DNA of 64,000 nt from Akkermansia muciniphila (GTDB taxonomy: Bacteria > Verrucomicrobiota > Verrucomicrobiia > Verrucomicrobiales > Akkermansiaceae). Positions 4,136 through 52,995 of the stretch are shown piece after piece (position 1 is the first letter of the stretch; the number at the start of each line of letters is the position of its first letter). Below the pieces are notes generated by a model. It saw nothing but the letters and a program-made list of their open reading frames with translations. It was not told the DNA's origin and made no database searches. Where the stretch lies: contig CANQLV010000004.1 in the NCBI GenBank assembly GCA_947624785.1, forward strand, positions 186,001 to 250,000, in the 5' to 3' direction. A program made the translations under genes and the position numbers.

Positions 4136-7100
4136 ATGAGTGATCAGACAACCGTAACTTACAGCACGATTGACGCTAACGAAGCCGTAGCCTCCGTAGC
4201 CTATCGTTTTTCTGAAGTCATTGCCATTTACCCCATTACACCGTCCTCTCCGATGGGTGAATCAGCTGAAAGCTGGGCCGCTGTCAACCGGAAGAACCTG
4301 TGGGGCACCGTTCCTTCCGTGGTGGAAATGCAGAGTGAAGGCGGCGCGGCAGGTACCGTTCACGGTGCCCTCCAGACCGGAGCCATGGCAACTACCTTCA
4401 CCGCATCCCAGGGCCTCCTGCTGATGATCCCGAACATGTTCAAGATCGCAGGGGAACTGACTCCGGCCGTGTTCCATGTGGCCGCCCGCTCCCTGGCCTA
4501 CCAGGGTCTCTCCATTTTCGGCGACCACAGCGACGTGATGAGCGCCCGCTCCTGCGGCTGGGCCATGCTGTGCGGCTCCTCCACGCAGGAAGCTGCGGAT
4601 TTTGCCGCCATTTCCCACGCCGCCACGCTGGAATCCCGCATTCCCTTCATGAACTTCTTTGACGGCTTCCGCACGTCCCATGAAATCGGCAAGATTGCAG
4701 ACATCACGGACGATACGCTGAACGGCATGATCAAGCAGGAATGGCTGGATTCCTTCCGCGAACGCGCCCTGACGCCGGACGCCCCCGTGCTGCGCGGCAC
4801 CGCCCAGAACCCGGACGTTTACTTCCAGGGCCGTGAAACGGTCAACCAATTCTATGAAGCCACCCCCGCCATCGTGCAGAAGGCCATGGACAGGTTTGCG
4901 GAGCTCACCGGCCGTTCCTACCATCTGGTGGACTATACCGGCGCCCCGGATGCCGAACGAGTCATCATCCTGATGGGCTCCGGCGCGGAAGCCGTGGAAG
5001 AAACGGTGGAAGCCATGATCGCCCGTGAAAACGCCAAGGTGGGCGTGCTGAAGGTGCGCCTGTTCCGCCCCTTCCCCGCCGCCGAACTGATCAAGGCCCT
5101 TCCCTCCACGGTCAAAAAGATCGCCGTGCTGGACCGCACGAAGGAACCCGGCTCCCAGGGCGAACCGCTCCATCAGGACGTCATCCAGGCACTCTTTGAC
5201 GCCCAGGGTTCCGGCACGCTTCCCTTCACCAACGGCATGCCCAAGGTGGTAGGCGGCCGCTACGGCCTCTCCTCCAAGGAATTCACTCCCGCCATGGTCA
5301 AGGGCGTCTACGACAGCCTGGAACAGGACGCTCCCAAGAACCACTTCACCATCGGCATCAACGACGACGTGCTGGGCACCAGCATCCCGTATGATGAAGA
5401 TTACTCAACGGAAGCGGACGACGTGACGCGCGCCATGTTCTTCGGCCTCGGTTCCGACGGCACCGTGGGCGCCAACAAGGACGCCATCAAGATCATCGGC
5501 CAGCACACGGACCTGTACGTTCAGGGCTACTTCGTGTACGACTCCAAGAAGGCCGGTTCCTCCACCATCTCCCACCTGCGCTTCGGCCCGCGCCCGATCA
5601 AGTCCACGTACCTGATCACCAAAGCGAACTTCCTGGCGCTGCACCAGCCCACGCTGCTGAACCTGTTTGACTTCCTGAAGAACGCCGCCAACGGCGCCAC
5701 CTTCCTGATGAACAGCCCGCACCCCGCGGACAAGCTGTGGGACACGCTGCCCGCCCGCATGCAACAGCAGATTCTGGACAAGAACCTCAAGCTTTACACG
5801 ATTGACGCCTTCTCCGTGGCCCGGAAAACGGGCATGGGCGGCCGCATCAACATGATCATGCAGACCTGCTTCTTCAAGCTGGCCGGCGTGATTCCCGCTG
5901 ATGAAGCCATCGGCTACATCAAGAAAGCCATCGCCAAGACCTACGCCAAGAAGGGGCAGGAAGTGGTGGACAAGAACATCGCCGCCGTGGACGCCACGCT
6001 GGAAAACCTGCACCGGGTGGACACCACAGGCAAAACCATCACCGGACACGCCATTCCGCCCGTCATGTCCGCTGACGCTCCGGACTACGTCCAGAACGTC
6101 CTCGGCAAGATGATGTGCGGCGAAGGGGACAGCATCCCCGTCAGCCAGATGCCTGTGGACGGCACGTTCCCGAACGGCACCTCCCAGTACGAAAAGCGCA
6201 ACCTGGCCCTGGACCTCCCGGAATGGGACCCCGCCCTCTGCATCCAGTGCGGCAAGTGCACGGCCGTTTGCCCGCACGCCGCCATCCGCAGCAAGTTCTT
6301 CTCTCCGGACGCCCTCTCCGGCGCGCCGGAAGGCTTTGAATGCCTGGATGCCAAGCATCCGGACTGGAAGGGTGAAAAATTCGTCATCCAGGTCTCACCG
6401 AACGACTGCACGGGCTGCACGCTCTGCTCCGACGTCTGCCCGGCCAAGAGCAAGACGGACCCGACCCACAAGGCCCTGACCATGGTGCCCACCCTGAAGA
6501 TTCACGACAAGGAGGAAGCCAACTGGGACTTCTTCATGAGCCTTCCGGACGTGGACCGCACCAAGGTAAGGACGGACAACATCCGCTCCATGCAGGTGCT
6601 GCGCCCGCTGTTTGAATTCTCCGGCGCCTGCGCCGGCTGCGGTGAAACCCCGTACGTGAAGATGCTCTCCCAGCTCTTCGGCAACCGCCTGGTGGTCGCC
6701 AACGCTACGGGCTGCTCCTCCATCTACGGCGGCAACCTGCCCACCACGCCGTGGTCCCACGACTCCGAAGGGCGCGGACCGGCCTGGTCCAACTCCCTGT
6801 TTGAAGACAACGCCGAATTCGGCCTTGGCTTCCGCGTCTCCCTGGACAAGCAGATGGAACACGCCATTGAGCTCCTCCATGAAGCCGCCGGCATCGTGGG
6901 CCAGGAACTGGTGGACCAGATCCTGACCAACCCGCAGAAGGATGAGGCGGACATCGTGCAGCAGCGTGAAAACGTCGCCGAACTCAAGAAGAGAATCACC
7001 GGCAAGCCGGAATGCGCGCGCCTCCTGACCATGGCGGACAAACTCGTCCGCAAGAGCGTCTGGATCCTCGGCGGCGACGGCTGGGCCTACGACATCGGCT

Positions 7101-24350: not shown

Positions 24351-24537
24351 GGAAATGCCCTGCCGTAGTAACGATCAAACGGTTTGCGGCTTGATCAGGA
24401 GGAGATGCCTGAAAAATGGATCTGGAAGACTCCAGCCGCTTTTTGACATTCCGGTTCTATTGATACTATTTAAGCCTATCCTCTTCAAATGAAAAAACTT
24501 TCAAATGACAAATACGTCTTTTAACGAGGTATATTTT

Positions 24538-25668
24538 ATGATACCGTACGTGTACGGTTTTATGGGTACCAGCACTTTACAACAACAAGCCATTCACCTC
24601 GTTTTCGGTACGGATGAAGGGATGGTGCGTGAAAAGGCTTCCGGCATCTTTGCCGCCCTGACGGAAGGCACGAATGAATTTTCCCATGAAATCCTGGAAG
24701 CGGCCTGCGGCGATTCCGATGAGGCGCACCAGGTGACGCGCCAAGTCATGGAAGCCCTGCGCACGCTCCCGTTTTTCCCGGGCCGCAAGGTGGTCTGGAT
24801 GAAGAACTGCAATTTTCTGGGGGATTCCGTCACGGGACGTTCCTCCACCACGGAAGCGGCTCTGGACTCTCTCAGGCACCTGCTGGAAGGGGGGCTGGGA
24901 GCGGACGTCCTGCTGCTCATCTCCGCCTCCGAATTTGACAAGCGCCGCTCCTTTAATAAATTCCTGCTCCAATCCGCAGCGGCGGAGGAACTGAACAAGC
25001 CGGACATCACCAAGGCCGGCTGGGAAGGCAGCCTGATGCCGCTCATCAACAAGGAGGCAGGCGCGCGGGGCATGAACTTTGATTCCGCCGCTCTGGAATT
25101 GTTCATTCACCGCGTCAGCGAATCCTCCCGCCAGATTATTTCCGAAATTGAAAAACTGGACCTCTATCTGGGCGCGGACAGGCGCACCGTAATGCCGGAG
25201 GATGTGGAGCGCATGGTTCCGCTGACGCGCACGGGCGTTATTTTTGAAATTTCACGTGCGCTGGAAAACAAGAAGAGTGATGCGGCCATCTCCCTGATTG
25301 ACTTTCAACTGGAACGCGGTGAAAACGCCGTCACGATCATGCGCGCCGCGTTCATTCCCACGCTGAGAAATCTGCTGGCCGCCAAACTTTTATGTGACGC
25401 GTTCAACCTGAAGCCCACCAACTTTAAGGAATTTACGGCCCGCCTCTCTTCCCTGCCCTCCTATGCAGCCGCGCTGATTCCCCTGAAAAAAGACGGCGCT
25501 CCCAATGCGTACCCGCTTTTCCTGGCGGCTCAGAACGCTTCCAAATTCAAGACGGAACGGTTGAAGCAGACCTTGAAGGAATGCATGAAGGCGGACAAGG
25601 CCCTGGTATCTTCTTCGCTTGATCCGCGGCTGATTCTGCACCGTCTTGCCATTTGCTCCGCATCCTGA
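24538..25668 (+). CDS. holA: DNA polymerase III, delta subunit
   Basis: Clamp-loader subunit that opens the beta sliding clamp so it can be placed on DNA. The 376-residue protein has the AAA+-like fold of Hol[18 protein letters not shown] near the N-terminus, the region [20 protein letters not shown], and the helical collar with [12 protein letters not shown] and [20 protein letters not shown]. The ATG at 24538 is preceded at eight bases by GAGG (24526-24529), which decides it over the upstream frame start at 24505. Its stop TGA overlaps the mnmG ATG by one base (TGATG at 25666), indicating translational coupling. Its clamp substrate gene dnaN lies 6 kb away. Confidence 0.9.
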
Positions 25669-27554
25669 TGAATTCCTCTCCTTCCCCCGCCTCCTCCCTG
25701 TTCGACGTCCTCGTCGTCGGCGCCGGGCACGCAGGCATTGAGGCGGCGTTGGCGGCCTCCCGCCTGGGGTGCTCCGTCGCCGTTCTGACCCACAACCTGG
25801 ATACCATCGGGCAAATGTCCTGCAACCCGGCCATCGGGGGGCTTGCCAAAGGCCACATTGTCCGGGAAATAGACGCCCTGGGAGGGGCCATGGGACTGAA
25901 TACGGACGCCACCGCCATCCAGTTCCGGATGCTGAACGCCTCCAAGGGGCCCAGCGTGCGCGCACCCCGCGCCCAATGCGACAAAACGGCCTACCGCGCA
26001 CGAATGAAAATGGTTCTGGAAACCGCTCCGGGCATACGCCTGTTCCAAGGAGACGTGGTCAAACTGCTCGTCAACGGGGAGCGGCAGGTGACGGGAGCCG
26101 TCACTTCCCTGGACTACACCATCTGCGCGCGCAGCGTGGTCATCTGCTCCGGAACGTTCATGCAGGGGCTGCTGCACGTGGGCCTTCAGCACATAACGGG
26201 CGGCCGCATGGGCTGCGCTCCTTCCAGCCTTTCCACCGACCTCGCCGCGCTTGGCTTTCAAGTGGAACGGCTTAAAACGGGCACTTCCCCGCGCGTCAAT
26301 GGAAGATCCATTGACTTTTCCGTTTGTGAAATGCAGCCCGGAGACACGCCGGAAGCGCTGTTCAGTTACCGTTCCCGCGACGTACTGAAACGTGCTTCCG
26401 AACCTTTCTGCACCCTGAACACATGGGGAGACGAAGACTTCCGCATGAAGCAAATGCCGTGCTGGATTACCTACACCAACCAGACCACCCACGACATCAT
26501 CCGGGACAATTTAAAATTCAGCCCTCTCTATAGCGGCATCATTGAGGGCATAGGTCCCCGGTACTGTCCTTCCATTGAAGACAAAATCGTGCGCTTTGCG
26601 GAAAAAAACAGCCACCAGGTCTTCCTGGAGCCGGAAGGCCGCAGTACGGAGGAATTCTACCTCAATGGCGTTTCCACCTCCCTGCCCTACTCCGCGCAAT
26701 GCGATTTCATCCACACCATCCCCGGCCTGGAAAACGCTCAATTGATTCGTCCGGGATACGCGGTGGAATATGATTTCTGCCCTCCCACGCAACTGCACCC
26801 TACTCTGGAAACCAAGCTGGTGGAAAACCTGTACTTTGCAGGACAAATCAACGGCACCTCCGGCTATGAAGAAGCCGCCGCGCAAGGCCTGATGGCGGGA
26901 ACAAACGCCGCTCTGAAAACTCTGGGCAAGCCCTCCCTAGTGCTGCGCCGCGACCAGGCCTACATCGGCGTCATGATAGACGACCTTGTCACCAAGGGAA
27001 CGGACGAACCGTACCGCATGTTCACCAGCCGGGCGGAATTCCGGCTGCTGCTGCGCCAGGACAACGCGGACCTGCGCCTGGCCCCCCTGGCTTTTGAAAC
27101 GGGCCTCATCACCCGCGAAACGTTCCGGAAAACGGAAGACAGGCAAAACGCCATTGAGGAAGGAATAGCAAAAGCGGCTGTGCTTAAACATGAAGGAGTC
27201 TCCCTTTCCACCTGGCTCAAGAGGCCGGGCAATGACTGGACCCTGCTGCCTGAAGAACTGAAAAAAATGTTCCACGTGGAACATTTGGATGCCATTGCCA
27301 CGGATATCCAGTACGAAGGGCACATTGAAAGACAGAAAAAACAGGCGGAAAAAATCACTCGGATGGAAAGTAAAATCATTCCTGCCGATATTGATTACGA
27401 ACGCGTTCACGCCCTGAAAAAAGAAGCGGTCATCAAGCTGGGCAGCATACGTCCCGCTACCATCGGGCAGGCTTCCCGCATTCCGGGCATTACTCCTGCG
27501 GATATTGCCCTGCTGCTTGTGCATTTGCAAAAGCGCGGCAGGCAGCAGGCATGA
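25668..27554 (+). CDS. mnmG: tRNA uridine-5-carboxymethylaminomethyl modification enzyme MnmG (GidA)
   Basis: FAD enzyme that with MnmE modifies the wobble uridine of certain tRNAs. From the ATG at 25668 it is 628 residues, as usual. The FAD-binding loop [19 protein letters not shown] is near the N-terminus; other signatures are [47 protein letters not shown] and [19 protein letters not shown], with the C-terminal helical domain ending [16 protein letters not shown]. Its ATG shares one base with the holA stop. Inside the coding sequence (27268-27283) is a perfect 16-base parS-like palindrome encoding FHVEH. gidA is a classic neighbour of replication origins. Confidence 0.97.
27268..27283. promoter_or_regulatory. 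parS-like ParB-binding palindrome inside mnmG
   Basis: TGTTCCACGTGGAACA is a perfect 16-base palindrome. It differs from the canonical parS TGTTTCACGTGAAACA only at the symmetric fifth and twelfth positions, a known parS variant. The flanking bases extend the symmetry to ATGTTCC...GGAACAT. A second near-copy lies at 32682. Confidence 0.75.
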
Positions 27555-27896: not shown

Positions 27897-28952
27897 TTAC
27901 CGGTAGCGCACGTCGCCCCGGATGCACACATCGTTTCCAAAGATGCTCACAACCGGCTGTTCAAGAAAGGCTTCACGTTCCAGAAATGAGCCGCCCGTCA
28001 CGCCGTCTGCGCCGCCCCCCGTTATGATGGGCGCGTAAAACCCCACCCATTCATCCACCAGGCCGGCTTTCAGGAATTCCCGGACCAGGCAGCCTCCCGC
28101 TTCCAGCAGAACAATCCCTGTTTTTCTTTCATTATATAGATTTTTTAATAATTCCAAATAACTTGAAACGTTCTCTACGATCATGGTCCGGTCACGGAAT
28201 TCATCCGTCAGGCAAATGGAATCCGCGGGAATGGATGCGGCGTTGTGAGTCAGGATAATGCGCCAGGGCTGTTCCTTAAGGGAAGAAACGGGACGGTCCG
28301 GTTTTCTGATGGTCAGGGACGGATTGTCCAGGCGCATGGTATTTCCTCCGGTAAGAATCGCATCGCACTCGGCCCGCAGGGTATGTACGAAAGACCTGGA
28401 TTTTTCATTCGTCAGCCACTGGGACCGTTCCGGACTGCGTGAAATGCGGCCGTCCAGGGACATGGCGCTCTTTGCGATCACCCACGGTCGCCCTTCCAGC
28501 ATGTTCAGCCTGAATCCCCGGATTAAATGATCGCATTCCTTTTCCAGAATTCCGCGGGTGACTTGGATGCCTGCTCTCCCAAGAATGCCAGCCGCGGTGC
28601 CGCGGTGTCTGGGGTTGGGGTCTTGAGAACCGTAAACCACCCGTTTGAAATGGTGCTCCAGGATAGCTTCCGTACAGGGCGGCGTTTTTCCGGTGGTGCT
28701 GCACGGTTCCAGAGTGACGTACAGAGTGGAATCCGCAAACAGGGCGGCGTTGCCTCTGGCCGTTCCATCAGCAATAGCCTTCCTTTCCGCATGGGGCAGG
28801 CCGGCTTTTTCATGAAAGCCGGAGCCGATCACCCGGTTTTCATGCACGATGACCGCTCCCACGCAGGGATTCGGACTTGTCAGCCCGATCCCTTTTCCGG
28901 CCAGTTTTATGGCCATGTTCATCCAGCGCGCGTCCTGGTCCTCCGTGTTCAT
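27897..28952 (-). CDS. ribD: Bifunctional riboflavin biosynthesis protein (deaminase/reductase)
   Basis: Performs two steps of riboflavin synthesis: deamination of the pyrimidine intermediate, then NADPH-dependent reduction of its ribosyl side chain. The 351-residue product has the zinc deaminase motif HAERKAIADG with PCSTTGKTPPCTEAI in the N-terminal half, and the RibD reductase domain from about 150 (AKSAMSLDGRISR, DAILTGGNTMRLDNPSLT, GIVLLEAGGCLVREFL). The ATG at 28952 has AAGGA four bases upstream; an in-frame ATG at 28988 is less well supported. No other rib gene and no FMN riboswitch is visible; the upstream DNA is the putative origin. Confidence 0.95.
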   Translation of the reverse strand: MNTEDQDARWMNMAIKLAGKGIGLTSPNPCVGAVIVHENRVIGSGFHEKAGLPHAERKAIADGTARGNAALFADSTLYVTLEPCSTTGKTPPCTEAILEHHFKRVVYGSQDPNPRHRGTAAGILGRAGIQVTRGILEKECDHLIRGFRLNMLEGRPWVIAKSAMSLDGRISRSPERSQWLTNEKSRSFVHTLRAECDAILTGGNTMRLDNPSLTIRKPDRPVSSLKEQPWRIILTHNAASIPADSICLTDEFRDRTMIVENVSSYLELLKNLYNERKTGIVLLEAGGCLVREFLKAGLVDEWVGFYAPIITGGGADGVTGGSFLEREAFLEQPVVSIFGNDVCIRGDVRYR

Positions 28953-28989
28953 GCCGTCCTTGTAGCACGAATGCGTGAAGAAGGACAAT

Positions 28990-29210
28990 CACGTTGTGTG
29001 ATTGAAGAATATTAGATTTAACAATATTAAATTCCTTCTTCTTCTACCCTGTGTCCAATGTGAACAACGTTTTTACCAACTGGGAATGAATGGATTGAAA
29101 TCATCCGCGGATGTGAATAAATTCGGTTTATAAAAATGTGGATAACATCTGAATAACTTATTCACATCATACTCACAGTTAATTGACTTACCCTTTCACA
29201 GGGTTATTGG
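28990..29210. other. Putative chromosomal replication origin (oriC): AT-rich tract plus DnaA-box cluster
   Basis: Within a 505-base gap (28953-29457) there is an AT-rich tract at about 29001-29034, a candidate unwinding element. It is followed by four DnaA-box-like 9-mers: TGTGAACAA (29059-29067), TGTGAATAA (29112-29120), the perfect consensus TGTGGATAA (29137-29145), and TTATTCACA (29158-29166, opposite orientation). mnmG is 1.5 kb left and dnaN 2.3 kb right, parS-like sites flank at 27268 and 32682, and strand composition changes sign across the gap. dnaA itself is not in the window. The rest of the gap to 29457 shows no element. Confidence 0.7.
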
Positions 29211-29457: not shown

Positions 29458-30189
29458 ATGGAAAATGCGGCGGAAGTGGTAGAGGTGTCCATGCATGATT
29501 TTTCCCCGGAAGCTGCCGCGTGGCTTGCTTCCCGCGGGGCGGGGGAAGCGCGGAATGAAGAAGGGCGGCTGCTGGCCCGGAAAGGGCGGGGGAACGGGCA
29601 GGCACGGGTTTTTTCAGGACGGGAGGCGGCTGTGGAGCGTCTCGTCTATCCCTGGGACCTGCTGGATTGGCAGGAGAGAGTGATGGAGGGAATGGAAGGA
29701 GACGATTTTTCCGGCCGGGAGGGCGTTTGCGTCCTGGGCAGGCTCCGGGTGGGAAAAGGCACCGTAGTGATGCCCGGCGTGGTGGTGGAGGGCTCCGTAT
29801 GGGTGGGGGACGGCTGCCGCCTCGGGCCCAACTGCCATTTGAGGGGGTATGTGTCCATGGGAAACGGCTGTATAGCGGGGCAGGGGGTGGAACTGAAGAA
29901 CTGCATCATCGGAGACGGCACGTTTATTCCCCATCTGAGCTATGCGGGTGATTCCATCATTGGCGGCGATGTCAATTTCGGGGCTGGAACGGTGTGTTCC
30001 AATTTCCGCCATGACGAAGGGGAGCACAGGATGATGGCGGGCGGGAGGCTGGAAACTACCGGAAGGAACAAGCTGGGAGCCGTCATCGGAGATCATGTGC
30101 GCCTGGGCGCCAATACCGTTGTTTTGCCGGGCAGGGTGGTTCCGCCCGGCGCTTGGACCATGCCGGGGGAAACATTCACGGGAGCGTGA
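29458..30189 (+). CDS. Left-handed beta-helix acyltransferase related to the GlmU C-terminal domain
   Basis: A 243-residue protein whose C-terminal two thirds consist of hexapeptide repeats (CVLGRLRVGKGTVVMPGVVV, then VWVGDGCRLGPN), forming a left-handed beta helix. The segment LSYAGDSIIGGDVNFGAGT followed by VCSNFR resembles the acetyl-CoA-binding region of GlmU-type sugar-phosphate acetyltransferases, so an acyltransferase acting on a nucleotide sugar or sugar phosphate is likely. The N-terminal 90 residues are not a nucleotidyltransferase and I cannot place them. The gene is very G-rich on its coding strand (29 G to 15 C in 29521-29580), as expected just right of an origin. Confidence 0.75.
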   Translation: MENAAEVVEVSMHDFSPEAAAWLASRGAGEARNEEGRLLARKGRGNGQARVFSGREAAVERLVYPWDLLDWQERVMEGMEGDDFSGREGVCVLGRLRVGKGTVVMPGVVVEGSVWVGDGCRLGPNCHLRGYVSMGNGCIAGQGVELKNCIIGDGTFIPHLSYAGDSIIGGDVNFGAGTVCSNFRHDEGEHRMMAGGRLETTGRNKLGAVIGDHVRLGANTVVLPGRVVPPGAWTMPGETFTGA

Positions 30190-31439: not shown

Positions 31440-31478
31440 ATGAGAGGATGCGAGGCAGATAAAAGCACAGACACATGA
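31440..31478 (+). CDS. 12-codon leader peptide translationally coupled to dnaN
   Basis: ATG at 31440 follows a near-perfect ribosome-binding site AGGAGG (31429-31434) at 5 bases, the best such site I noticed in this window. The frame reads MRGCEADKSTDT and stops at TGA 31476-31478, which overlaps the dnaN start as ATGA (31475-31478). dnaN itself has no Shine-Dalgarno sequence in front of its ATG. The arrangement predicts that ribosomes load on the leader and re-initiate at dnaN. Whether the peptide has a function is unknown. Confidence 0.6.
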   Translation: MRGCEADKSTDT

Positions 31479-32575
31479 AGTTTACCATTTCCAAGCAAGT
31501 ATTTCTCGACGGTCTGAGACAGGTTGCCAGCGTGGTGTCTTCCAAGACGACGCTGCCCATTCTTTCCAACGTCAAGATTGAAGCCGAAAACGGCCAGGTA
31601 CGTTTTACGGCTACGGATCTTGACGTATGCATCACCGGCGTAGTTCCCGCGAACGTGCTGCGCGAGGGCACCGTGACTCTCCCCGCCAAAAAGCTGGTGA
31701 GCATCATCAGCGAGCTTCCTGAAGCCGAAGTCCAGGTGGACGTCAACCAGCGCAACCAGGCGACTGTGGAATGCGGCCGCTCCCAGTTCAAGCTGAACGG
31801 CCTTCCGGCGGACGAATTCCCCGAACTGCCTTCCTTTGAACAGGCGACCGTGTACCAGGTGGACCAGAATTTGCTGCGCGACTGCATCCGCCGCACGGAA
31901 TACGCCATCTCCACGGATACGACCCGCTACGTGCTGAACGGCATTTCCCTTTCCTTCCGCAACGGCAAGATGACCTTGGTGGCTACGGACGGGCGCCGCC
32001 TGGCCCTGGCGGAAACCGCCCTGGAATTCCCGGAAGAACAGCAACTGGACGCCATTCTGCCAACCAAGGCCGTTGGTGAACTCCGTCGCCTGCTGGATGA
32101 AGTGGGGACCGTCACCATCCGTTTCACCCGCAACCAGGCCGCTTTTGAAATCAATGATACGCTGCTGATCAGCAAGCTGATTGACGGCAATTACCCGAAT
32201 TACCGCCAGGTAATCCCGACGGACTGCAAGGAAAGCATTGAATTGCCCTGCGGGGAACTGCTGGAAACGGTGCGCCGCGTGTCCCTCCTTTCCGTGGACA
32301 AGAGCACGAACATCAAGCTGAATTTCCGTGAAAACGAACTGGAAGTGGCTTCCAGTGCGGAAGGCGTGGGTGAAGCCCATGAATCCATGACGATCACTTA
32401 TGGCGGAAGGCCGCTTTCCATTTCCTTCAACCCGGATTTCTTCATGGCTCCCCTGAAGACGATGGCCGGGGATACGATCATTACGCTGAACCTCATTGAT
32501 GAAATGAGCCCGGGCGTATTGAAGATTGGTGATGAGTTCCTGTACGTGCTCATGCCGATGAGATCTCCCAACTGA
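31475..32575 (+). CDS. dnaN: DNA polymerase III beta subunit (sliding clamp)
   Basis: Ring-shaped processivity clamp that tethers replicative polymerase to DNA. The 366-residue chain has the three-domain clamp fold: MKFTISKQVFLDGLRQVASV and TTLPILSNVKIEAENGQVRF in domain I, ISTDTTRYVLNGISLSFRNG in domain II, and the C-terminal hydrophobic-cleft residues ending FLYVLMPMRSPN. Length is standard. The start overlaps a 12-codon leader frame (ATGA). It is followed 31 bases later by a terminator, so it is monocistronic and separated from dnaA, recF and gyrB, which are absent from the window. Confidence 0.97.
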   Translation: MKFTISKQVFLDGLRQVASVVSSKTTLPILSNVKIEAENGQVRFTATDLDVCITGVVPANVLREGTVTLPAKKLVSIISELPEAEVQVDVNQRNQATVECGRSQFKLNGLPADEFPELPSFEQATVYQVDQNLLRDCIRRTEYAISTDTTRYVLNGISLSFRNGKMTLVATDGRRLALAETALEFPEEQQLDAILPTKAVGELRRLLDEVGTVTIRFTRNQAAFEINDTLLISKLIDGNYPNYRQVIPTDCKESIELPCGELLETVRRVSLLSVDKSTNIKLNFRENELEVASSAEGVGEAHESMTITYGGRPLSISFNPDFFMAPLKTMAGDTIITLNLIDEMSPGVLKIGDEFLYVLMPMRSPN

Positions 32576-32668: not shown

Positions 32669-32697
32669 TTATTCACACGAATGTTCTACGTGGAACA
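32669..32697. promoter_or_regulatory. Second parS-like site with adjacent DnaA-box-like 9-mer
   Basis: TGTTCTACGTGGAACA (32682-32697) differs at one position from the perfect palindrome at 27268. Five bases to its left is TTATTCACA (32669-32677), identical to a DnaA-box-like 9-mer in the putative oriC. The gap 32576-32879 otherwise holds the dnaN terminator and nothing with coding character. Confidence 0.6.
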
Positions 32698-50316: not shown

Positions 50317-52995
50317 ATGTCTTCAGAAACGCATTTGGACAGCCAGCGGGCGGACAGGATTCTGGCCTCCATCCGGAGGGAGGAATCCCGCCCCGGCCGC
50401 GGCCTGCTGAAAATCTTTTTCGGCATGGCGCCGGGAGTAGGCAAGACGTACGCCATGCTGGAGGCCGCCATTCAGGCGGCGGACAAGGGCGTGCAGGTCA
50501 TGATCGGCGTGGCGGAATCCCATGGCCGGGAAGATACGATGCGCCTTATCGGCAGGCTGCCGCGCCTTCCGATGAAGAAAGTGGCTTACCGGGGCGTGGA
50601 GATGGAAGAGTTCGACCTGGAGGAGGCGCTGCGCGTGAAGCCCCAGCTTATTCTGGTGGACGAGCTGGCGCATACGAACGTTCCCGGAATGCGTCACAGG
50701 AAGCGCTACCAGGACGTGGAGGATTTGCTGGCCGCAGGGATAGACGTTTACACCACGCTGAACGTGCAGCATCTGGAAAGCCGTTCCGATACCGTTCATG
50801 ACATTACCGCCGCTCCCGTGCAGGAAACCGTTCCGGATTCCGTGCTGGCGGAGGCGGACTGCATCCAGTTGGTGGACATCACGCCGGAGCAGTTGCGGAC
50901 GCGTCTTCAGGAAGGGAAGGTGTACAGCGCCCCCCAGGCTTCCGCCGCGCTGGACCATTTTTTCAAGGAGTCCAACCTGACGGCTCTCCGGGAGCTGGCC
51001 CTGCGCATCATGGCGGAGAAGGTGGACCATGAGCTGACGGAGGTGCGCACCATCTCCGGGGACCGCTCCATCTGGCGCAGCGGAGAACGGCTGATGGTAG
51101 CCGTGGGCCCCAGCCCGTTTTCCGCCCGGCTGGTGCGCTGGACGCGGCGCATGGCCTACGCCCTGAACGCCCCGTGGATTGCCCTTTCCGTGGATACGGG
51201 CGTGCCGCTGCCCCCCGAACAGCAGCAGCGGCTGGACGCCAACCTGGAACTGGCGCGGCGGCTGGGTGCGGAGGTGATCGTGATGCCCGGGTCCGACCTG
51301 GCGGAGACGCTGCTCCGCATGGCCTTTTTGAGAAATGTCAGCCAGATTGTGGTGGGCAAGCCGCAGGAAAGCTACCTGTGGGGGCTGGTGCGGCCCATGT
51401 CCCTGGTGGACAAGCTGGTGAAAGGGAGCGACCAGATTGACATTTACGTAGTTCCCGCCGCTCCCGGCCCGGTCCGGAGCCGGTGGAAGAGCTGGCACCG
51501 GGAAACGGAAAAATATGGCCGGGACTACTGGCTGGCCGCAGGCGTGACGGCGGCCGTTACGGGAATCGGCCTGTTGATTTCCGCGTTTACCGGTTATTTC
51601 GCTCCCGGCTTCCTGTATCTGGCGGGAGTGGTGGGCCTGGGCTTTTTCATCCGTTCCCGCTGGGCCATGCTGATGGCCGCTGCGCTGAGCGCCCTGTTGT
51701 GGAACCTGCTGTTCATTCCTCCGGTGATGACGTTCAAGATAGAACGGCTGGAGGATGCCCTGATGTGCCTCTTTTTCTTTCTGGTGGCCCTCTCCACGGG
51801 GCGGCTCACTTCCCGCCTGAGAGTCCGCGAGCAGGAGGAGCGGGAGCGGGAAAAAAAGACCAATGCCCTGTTCCTGTATTCGCGGGCCATTGGGTCCGCC
51901 TCGGACGTGCCTTCCCTGATTTCCGTCGCCGCGGGGCAGATCAGCCAGATCATGGGGGTGCGCCTGGCGGTCATGACGCCGGAAGGCAGCGGCCGCAGGC
52001 TGAAGCTTTGGGAATCCGGCGGGGCTTTTCCCATGGATGACAAGGAATGGAGCGTGGCGGCCTGGTGCCTGGAGCACCGCCGGCCCGCAGGAAGGTTTAC
52101 GGATACGCTCCCGGTGGCGGAAGGATTTTACCTCCCCATGATGTCCGGGGAACGCTGCATGGGCGTGCTGGGCGTGAGGCCGGAGGAAGGCGCGCGCCTC
52201 ACGGCAGGGCAGAAGGATTTGCTGGAAAGCATGGGCGCGCAGCTGGCCATGGCGCTGGAACGTGAAGAACTGCGGGCGGAACGGGCGCGTACGCGGCTCA
52301 TGGAGGAATCCGAAAAACTGCACCGCTCTCTGCTGGACAGCGTTTCCCATGAGTTCAAGACGCCTCTGGCCGTGATTGAGGGCGGCTGTGAGAAACTGGC
52401 CGGGCGCGCCGCGTCCGCGCCGGAGGAACGGGAGGAGTATGGGGAAATCCTGCTGGCCGCGCGCCGCCTGCGCCGCCTGGTGAAAAATTTGCTGGACGTG
52501 AGCCGCCTGGAATCCGGCGCCCTGAAGCCCAAACTGGACTGGTGCGACCTGGGGGACGTGATTGAAGGAGCGCTGGCCGCCACCAGGGAGGCGCGCCGGG
52601 ACCATCCCGTGTCTGTCGCCCTGCCGCCGGATTATCCGCTGGTGAAGGCGGATTTCTCCCTGATGGAGCAGGTGCTGGTCAATCTGCTGCTGAATGCCTG
52701 CGTTCATACTCCTGCGGGAACCCCCATTACGCTGAAGGGCGGCGCCGATCCCGTGCGCGGTCAGGTCTGGCTGGATGTCCATGACCTGGGGCCGGGCATT
52801 CCCTCCGAACGGGCGGAAACCATTTTTGAGCGTTTCCGGACGACGCGGCCCGGCGGCCTGGGACTGGGGCTTCCCATCGTGCGCGGTTTCATGGAGGCGC
52901 AGCGGGGAGCCGTCACCCTGGTTCCCGTTCCCGCCGGAACCTGTTTCCGTCTTGTCCTTCCCCTGGTGGAGCATGATCATGTTCCTGAAGAATAA
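50317..52995 (+). CDS. kdpD: KdpD potassium sensor histidine kinase
   Basis: Membrane kinase that senses low K+ or osmotic stress and phosphorylates KdpE. The 892 residues follow the KdpD plan: N-terminal KdpD domain with Walker A-like GMAPGVGKT at 36-44 and LILVDELAHTNVPG, a universal-stress-like domain (about 250-370), a four-helix DUF4118 membrane block (about 405-500), a GAF-like region, and the kinase core with His678 in VSHEFKTPLAV, then the ATP-binding boxes NLLLNACVHTP and DLGPGIPSERAETIFERF. It precedes kdpE by 18 bases in the same operon. Confidence 0.97.
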   Translation: MSSETHLDSQRADRILASIRREESRPGRGLLKIFFGMAPGVGKTYAMLEAAIQAADKGVQVMIGVAESHGREDTMRLIGRLPRLPMKKVAYRGVEMEEFDLEEALRVKPQLILVDELAHTNVPGMRHRKRYQDVEDLLAAGIDVYTTLNVQHLESRSDTVHDITAAPVQETVPDSVLAEADCIQLVDITPEQLRTRLQEGKVYSAPQASAALDHFFKESNLTALRELALRIMAEKVDHELTEVRTISGDRSIWRSGERLMVAVGPSPFSARLVRWTRRMAYALNAPWIALSVDTGVPLPPEQQQRLDANLELARRLGAEVIVMPGSDLAETLLRMAFLRNVSQIVVGKPQESYLWGLVRPMSLVDKLVKGSDQIDIYVVPAAPGPVRSRWKSWHRETEKYGRDYWLAAGVTAAVTGIGLLISAFTGYFAPGFLYLAGVVGLGFFIRSRWAMLMAAALSALLWNLLFIPPVMTFKIERLEDALMCLFFFLVALSTGRLTSRLRVREQEEREREKKTNALFLYSRAIGSASDVPSLISVAAGQISQIMGVRLAVMTPEGSGRRLKLWESGGAFPMDDKEWSVAAWCLEHRRPAGRFTDTLPVAEGFYLPMMSGERCMGVLGVRPEEGARLTAGQKDLLESMGAQLAMALEREELRAERARTRLMEESEKLHRSLLDSVSHEFKTPLAVIEGGCEKLAGRAASAPEEREEYGEILLAARRLRRLVKNLLDVSRLESGALKPKLDWCDLGDVIEGALAATREARRDHPVSVALPPDYPLVKADFSLMEQVLVNLLLNACVHTPAGTPITLKGGADPVRGQVWLDVHDLGPGIPSERAETIFERFRTTRPGGLGLGLPIVRGFMEAQRGAVTLVPVPAGTCFRLVLPLVEHDHVPEE

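Follow-up and report, generated by a model that had tools for sequence, protein, structure and literature searches.

Origins compared with the ribD-linked locus

In Escherichia coli, the chromosomal origin oriC is found away from dnaA and next to mnmG. The locus described here resembles it in that a cluster of TTATNCACA boxes lies beside an AT-rich element, at a distance from dnaA. It differs in its neighbours, as ribD is the fixed partner, dnaN is near and parS is close, and in the presence of a triplet repeat with abutting tandem boxes. Such a repeat is known from the basal unwinding system of Bacillus subtilis, which consists of boxes #6/#7 and DnaA-trios (PMC8287927, PMC10721633). The two co-oriented boxes, the short spacer, the triplet repeat and the AT-rich tract are all shared with that system. 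However, the repeat found here reads 5'-GAW-3' on the box strand and not 5'-CTA-3' (3'-GAT-5' on the other strand), and the dnaA gene is not adjacent.

Two verrucomicrobial origins can also be compared. That of Methylacidiphilum infernorum V4 was likewise found by GC skew, but it is located 250 nt upstream of dnaA (PMC2474590). The OMM12 Hi-C study used skew, parS and read coverage to locate the origin of Akkermansia muciniphila YL44, which belongs to the same genus as our bacterium. There, the origins of 12 gut strains, YL44 included, were not always at dnaA, and the authors warn that dnaA is not always an origin marker (PMC10197239). As such origins are already known, an origin away from dnaA is ordinary and not new. 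The parts of that report used here do not describe a box layout, an unwinding motif, a linkage to ribD or a change of the DnaA box within the genus.

Box cluster, skew and parS at the origin

The window, the whole stretch of 64,000 nucleotides that was analysed, comprises bases 186001-250000 of the 251-kb contig C4, in a genome of 3,078,632 bases and 24 contigs. Positions 28996-29175 of the window are almost certainly the chromosomal origin oriC of this Akkermansia-like gut bacterium. We draw this conclusion from the DNA because the unique triple of boxes, the AT-rich tract, the skew minimum, parS and the occurrence of the same locus in congeners all point to one place. The core, a DnaA-box cluster with a putative AT-rich unwinding region, lies between ribD (27897-28988, minus strand; TIGR00326, 276 bits) and a gene for a GlmU-like hexapeptide acetyltransferase (29458-30189, plus strand; in synteny with the complete congener G015), the neighbour on the other side. 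The ribD open reading frame is given from a TTG start; the ATG at 28952 looks the likelier one. The gene order is holA (DNA polymerase III delta; 24505-25668, TIGR01128) and mnmG (gidA; 25653-27554, TIGR00136, 783 bits) on the plus strand, ribD on the minus strand, the gap, and then the GlmU-like gene, a short unassigned open reading frame and dnaN (31475-32575, TIGR00663, 327 bits), with the GlmU-like gene and dnaN on the plus strand.

Three perfect TTATNCACA boxes are present inside 55 bp: TTATTCACA at 29112-29120 (minus strand), TTATCCACA at 29137-29145 (minus strand, reading TGTGGATAA on the plus strand) and TTATTCACA again at 29158-29166 (plus strand). Three near-boxes, all on the minus strand, accompany them. 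One, TTATTCAGA, is found at 29148-29156. The DnaA-box-like 9-mer proximal to the unwinding region, TTGGACACA, occupies 29050-29058, and TTGTTCACA at 29059-29067 abuts it and is co-oriented with it. The cluster beside an AT-rich tract that the sequence-only reading had seen is thereby confirmed. The motif as such is not enriched, since TTATNCACA has 34 matches in the 3.08-Mb genome against 36 for the reversed control. About 6e-6 triples within 55 bp are expected, and there is no other spot in the genome with three perfect TTATNCACA boxes within 250 bp. With up to one mismatch allowed, five boxes fall in the 250-bp stretch from 29059, and the maximum elsewhere in the window is two. A similar density of 9-mers in many other gaps had been named as a reason to doubt the origin; when this was checked, no other locus of the genome matched it, and the cluster is unique.

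The AT-rich tract that adjoins the boxes, the putative DNA unwinding element, was annotated at 28996-29033 (minus strand). The AT content of the region is 82-85%, with 85% for 29001-29034. A few other places in the window are as AT-rich, and the tract is therefore notable only because of its position beside the boxes. Together with the GAA repeat it makes up an imperfect dyad, which the close congeners retain.

GC skew places the origin at the same locus. The curve for our genome is that of contig C4 only, and over the whole of this contig the cumulative minimum is at window position 28206, 0.8-0.9 kb from the core. Within the window, the all-base skew is -0.058 to the left and +0.049 to the right of the origin, and the expected sign is seen in 25 of the 29 left and 26 of the 35 right 1-kb bins. 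The four G/C counts quoted earlier for the two sides (19/25 at 4741-4800, 15/24 at 27061-27120, 29/15 at 29521-29580 and 28/11 at 50581-50640) are exact. The check proposed with them, to find where the skew minimum falls, was run on our contig and, by sampling stretches, on two complete congeners (G004 and G015), and put the minimum at the locus or within a few kilobases of it. G004 has a single sampled minimum at about 1.24 Mb and a single maximum at about 2.88 Mb, near the opposite point. In G015 the minimum is at about 0.41-0.43 Mb, and at the 425.1-kb locus negative skew gives way to positive. In both our contig and G015 the minimum is blurred on the scale of kilobases, the local one of G015 being about 7.6 kb from the boxes. 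A search for dif as a mark of the terminus gave scattered matches with two mismatches and none at the skew maximum.

A parS-like palindrome, TGTTCCACGTGGAACA, is located at 27268-27283 in the 3' end of mnmG, 1.8 kb from the origin. It is the sole parS match of the genome at up to two mismatches, and G004 and G015 have it at the corresponding position. A second parS-like site, with three mismatches, follows dnaN (32682-32697), and both flanks of the origin carry such palindromes. The site at 27268-27283 would encode the MFHVEH end of the mnmG protein.

The arrangement around ribD is kept in relatives. In G004 the homologous gap spans 1237612-1238161, and its box cluster (1237894-1237948) sits at the sampled skew minimum. 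The more distant G015 retains ribD, three perfect boxes and the GlmU-like gene at 425.1 kb, with dnaN 27 kb off. Because dnaN has moved in G015, the stable partner is ribD and not dnaN. The origin had been described as lying between ribD and dnaN; the ribD side of this description stands, and linkage to dnaN as a defining feature was rejected. Of 35 congeners, nearly all have a box cluster and an AT-rich element upstream of ribD, and a box cluster also adjoins ribD in Rubritalea profundi. The genomes compared indicate that the link between ribD and the origin is ancient.

The distant dnaA gene and other box clusters

The dnaA gene had been noted as missing from the window, and it was indeed found on another contig (C8:19432-20793). 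An adjacent dnaA, as in origins of the dnaA-dnaN type, is not present. In the two complete congeners, dnaA is about 1.1-1.2 Mb from the origin and nearer the terminus. Its distance to the origin and skew minimum is about 1.24 Mb in G004, where the skew maximum is about 0.3 Mb off; in G015 the origin is about 1.1 Mb away from it. Many other genomes of the order have dnaA next to dnaN. The separation of the two genes here therefore looks derived, and from this we infer the order of events. The same adjacency, and the fact that dnaA is the usual origin neighbour, would speak for an origin at dnaA, which the start of the G004 record (dnaA at base 68) seems to assume. This is extremely improbable. 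The dnaA locus of our genome has no DnaA box with up to one mismatch over 4.4 kb, the skew is negative on both sides of dnaA in our contig C8 and in G004, and the distances in G004 put the gene far from the skew minimum. The proposal that replication starts at the ribD-linked locus, away from dnaA, is supported by the unique box density, the skew minimum at the locus and the position of dnaA on another contig. In the G004 record, which begins at dnaA (C1:68-1429), the gene lies in the last third of its replichore and points against the fork.

Box clusters away from skew switches do occur in congeners (G013, C33:29045-29200 and C39:14090-14219; G015, 2148629-2148808). They lend some support to the view that the boxes beside ribD serve as a promoter through which DnaA controls ribD or the GlmU-like gene, or as a datA-like titration site, and that replication starts elsewhere. 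We consider this very unlikely. The G013 and G015 clusters sit in skew of one sign, whereas the ribD cluster is at a skew switch in our contig and in two complete congeners and adjoins the sole parS; moreover, a promoter site would leave the skew unexplained. As alternative origins, the second clusters of G013 and G015 were rejected because there is no skew switch at them. Each may mark a gene under DnaA control or serve to titrate DnaA. Those at G013 C33:29045-29200 and G015 2148629-2148808 have 6-7 boxes each, mostly in one orientation, and the open reading frames beside them are homologous (185-201 aa, 37% identical) and have no Pfam match. At G013 C39:14090-14219, three perfect DnaA boxes lie just upstream of dnaA; these are absent from the dnaA locus of our genome.

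The GAW repeat and a changed box code

On the ribD strand, the order in the window is TTGTTCACA TTGGACACA gggta GAAGAAGAAGGA, followed by the AT-rich tract. The triplet repeat GAAGAAGAAGGA (29033-29044, minus strand) is (GAW)n on the box strand and is reversed compared to the canonical DnaA-trio. When the layout was scored by inspection, 33 of 35 congeners had a pair of boxes with little or no gap between them, about 5 nt of spacer, 3-4 GAW triplets and an AT-rich tract; the other two, G008 and G014, are sister species. The basal unwinding system has a co-oriented box pair followed by no more than 16 nt of spacer, and the window shows the same (abutting 9-mers and a 5-nt spacer). Previously, it was shown that the DnaA-trio is 5'-CTA-3' on the box strand (PMC8287927, PMC8235120) and that reversing the trio polarity abolished unwinding in Helicobacter pylori (PMC8235120). 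At least three triplets 3'-GAT-5' (5'-YTR-3' on the box strand) after a box were found in 0 of the 35 origins, unlike in firmicute control loci, where YTR triplets after a box do occur, and no canonical trio was found on either strand of these origins. On the box strand, G and A are the triplet letters conserved in the 35 congeners.

Because of the opposite orientation, the lack of YTR triplets in all 35 origins and the inactivity of reversed H. pylori trios, we did not file the GAW repeat as a DnaA-trio. That it is an ordinary trio and that the unwinding region is not unusual is nevertheless suggested by the layout, which matches the basal unwinding system in its tandem co-oriented boxes, short spacer, at least three triplets and AT-rich tract, and by the ATG-phase triplets of GAT-type genomes, which would satisfy the most permissive of the published patterns (NAN on the other strand; PMC8287927). 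The repeat of our window, GAAGAAGAAGG, has no T and fails even this loose pattern. Taken with the conserved G and A and the H. pylori result, this makes an ordinary trio unlikely, if still worth some weight. We favour a GAW-on-box-strand module that would do the same job as the DnaA-trio, and such an unwinding module looks new.

A scan of 190 genomes of the order for a box, a spacer and GAWGAWGA, in which no gene information was used, gave matches in 20 genomes, 15 of which are among the 57 genomes of the same family; a reversed control pattern matched in 5 genomes. In 8 of the 20, ribD is within about 400 bp of the match. The initiator-specific motif of DnaA has extra residues in most congeners compared to other families of the order and to B. 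subtilis. A coupling between this insert and the GAW change was considered and no clear link was seen, as G015 has the GAW repeat and not the insert.

Three congeners (G001, G003 and G031) have the GAW module and zero TTATNCACA boxes left at the origin gap. Among 6-mers, CTGACA stands out most there, with 14 occurrences on the two strands where 0.5 would be expected, and 9-mers that bear it, such as TTGCTGACA and AAACTGACA, fill the same tandem positions. TWRCTGACA sites in the gap and in the whole genome number 4 and 10 in G031, 3 and 9 in G003, and 1 and 22 in G001, which makes the case for a switch weaker in G001. The local skew minimum of the examined stretch is at the gap in G003 and G031; G001 has no clear local skew switch beside ribD. 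Exactly these three genomes have the DnaA recognition helix GGRSHATVLNA. In every other congener examined this position reads RDH, and in nearly all of them GTV[IL]HA comes next. A helix that read RDHGTVxH would thus have become RSHATVLN (D replaced by S, G by A and H by N), at positions that align with D433, T435 and H439 of E. coli DnaA, which are listed as base-contacting (PMC7561715). In a tree calculated with the motif masked, the three species group together as a single, fully supported clade within the genus, and because of this the coupling of box and helix can be read as a single event. These comparisons are suggestive of a coupled change of the box and the DnaA recognition helix. A switch of the box code within a genus looks new.

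Our combined reading of the two modules, which we hold to be evenly balanced between right and wrong, is that Akkermansiaceae have a mirror-image trio, where DnaA would load from the tandem boxes onto 5'-GAW-3' of the box strand (or onto a different triplet on the usual strand), and that one clade may have replaced both sides of the code, with boxes going from TTATTCACA to TTGCTGACA-like and DnaA D433/H439 (E. coli numbering) to S/N. For the origin in our window, the layout leads us to infer that DnaA binds, where the duplex opens and what the GAW repeat does. DnaA made from the distant gene would bind the boxes clustered at 29112-29166 and the abutting, co-oriented pair at 29050-29067, and load from these boxes towards the GAW repeat and the AT-rich tract (28996-29044). 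It would then melt this region and admit the helicase, and two forks would depart in opposite directions. ParB bound to the nearby parS sites may help to segregate the new origins.

The origin of a widely studied gut genus is placed here where dnaA-based annotation and growth-rate tools would miss it; the complete G004 record itself starts at dnaA, about 1.24 Mb from its origin. The GAW repeat offers a natural test of how strict the polarity of the DnaA-trio is. The three species with the changed boxes may likewise serve as a natural test of how the specificity of an essential initiator and of its many binding sites can change jointly between close relatives.
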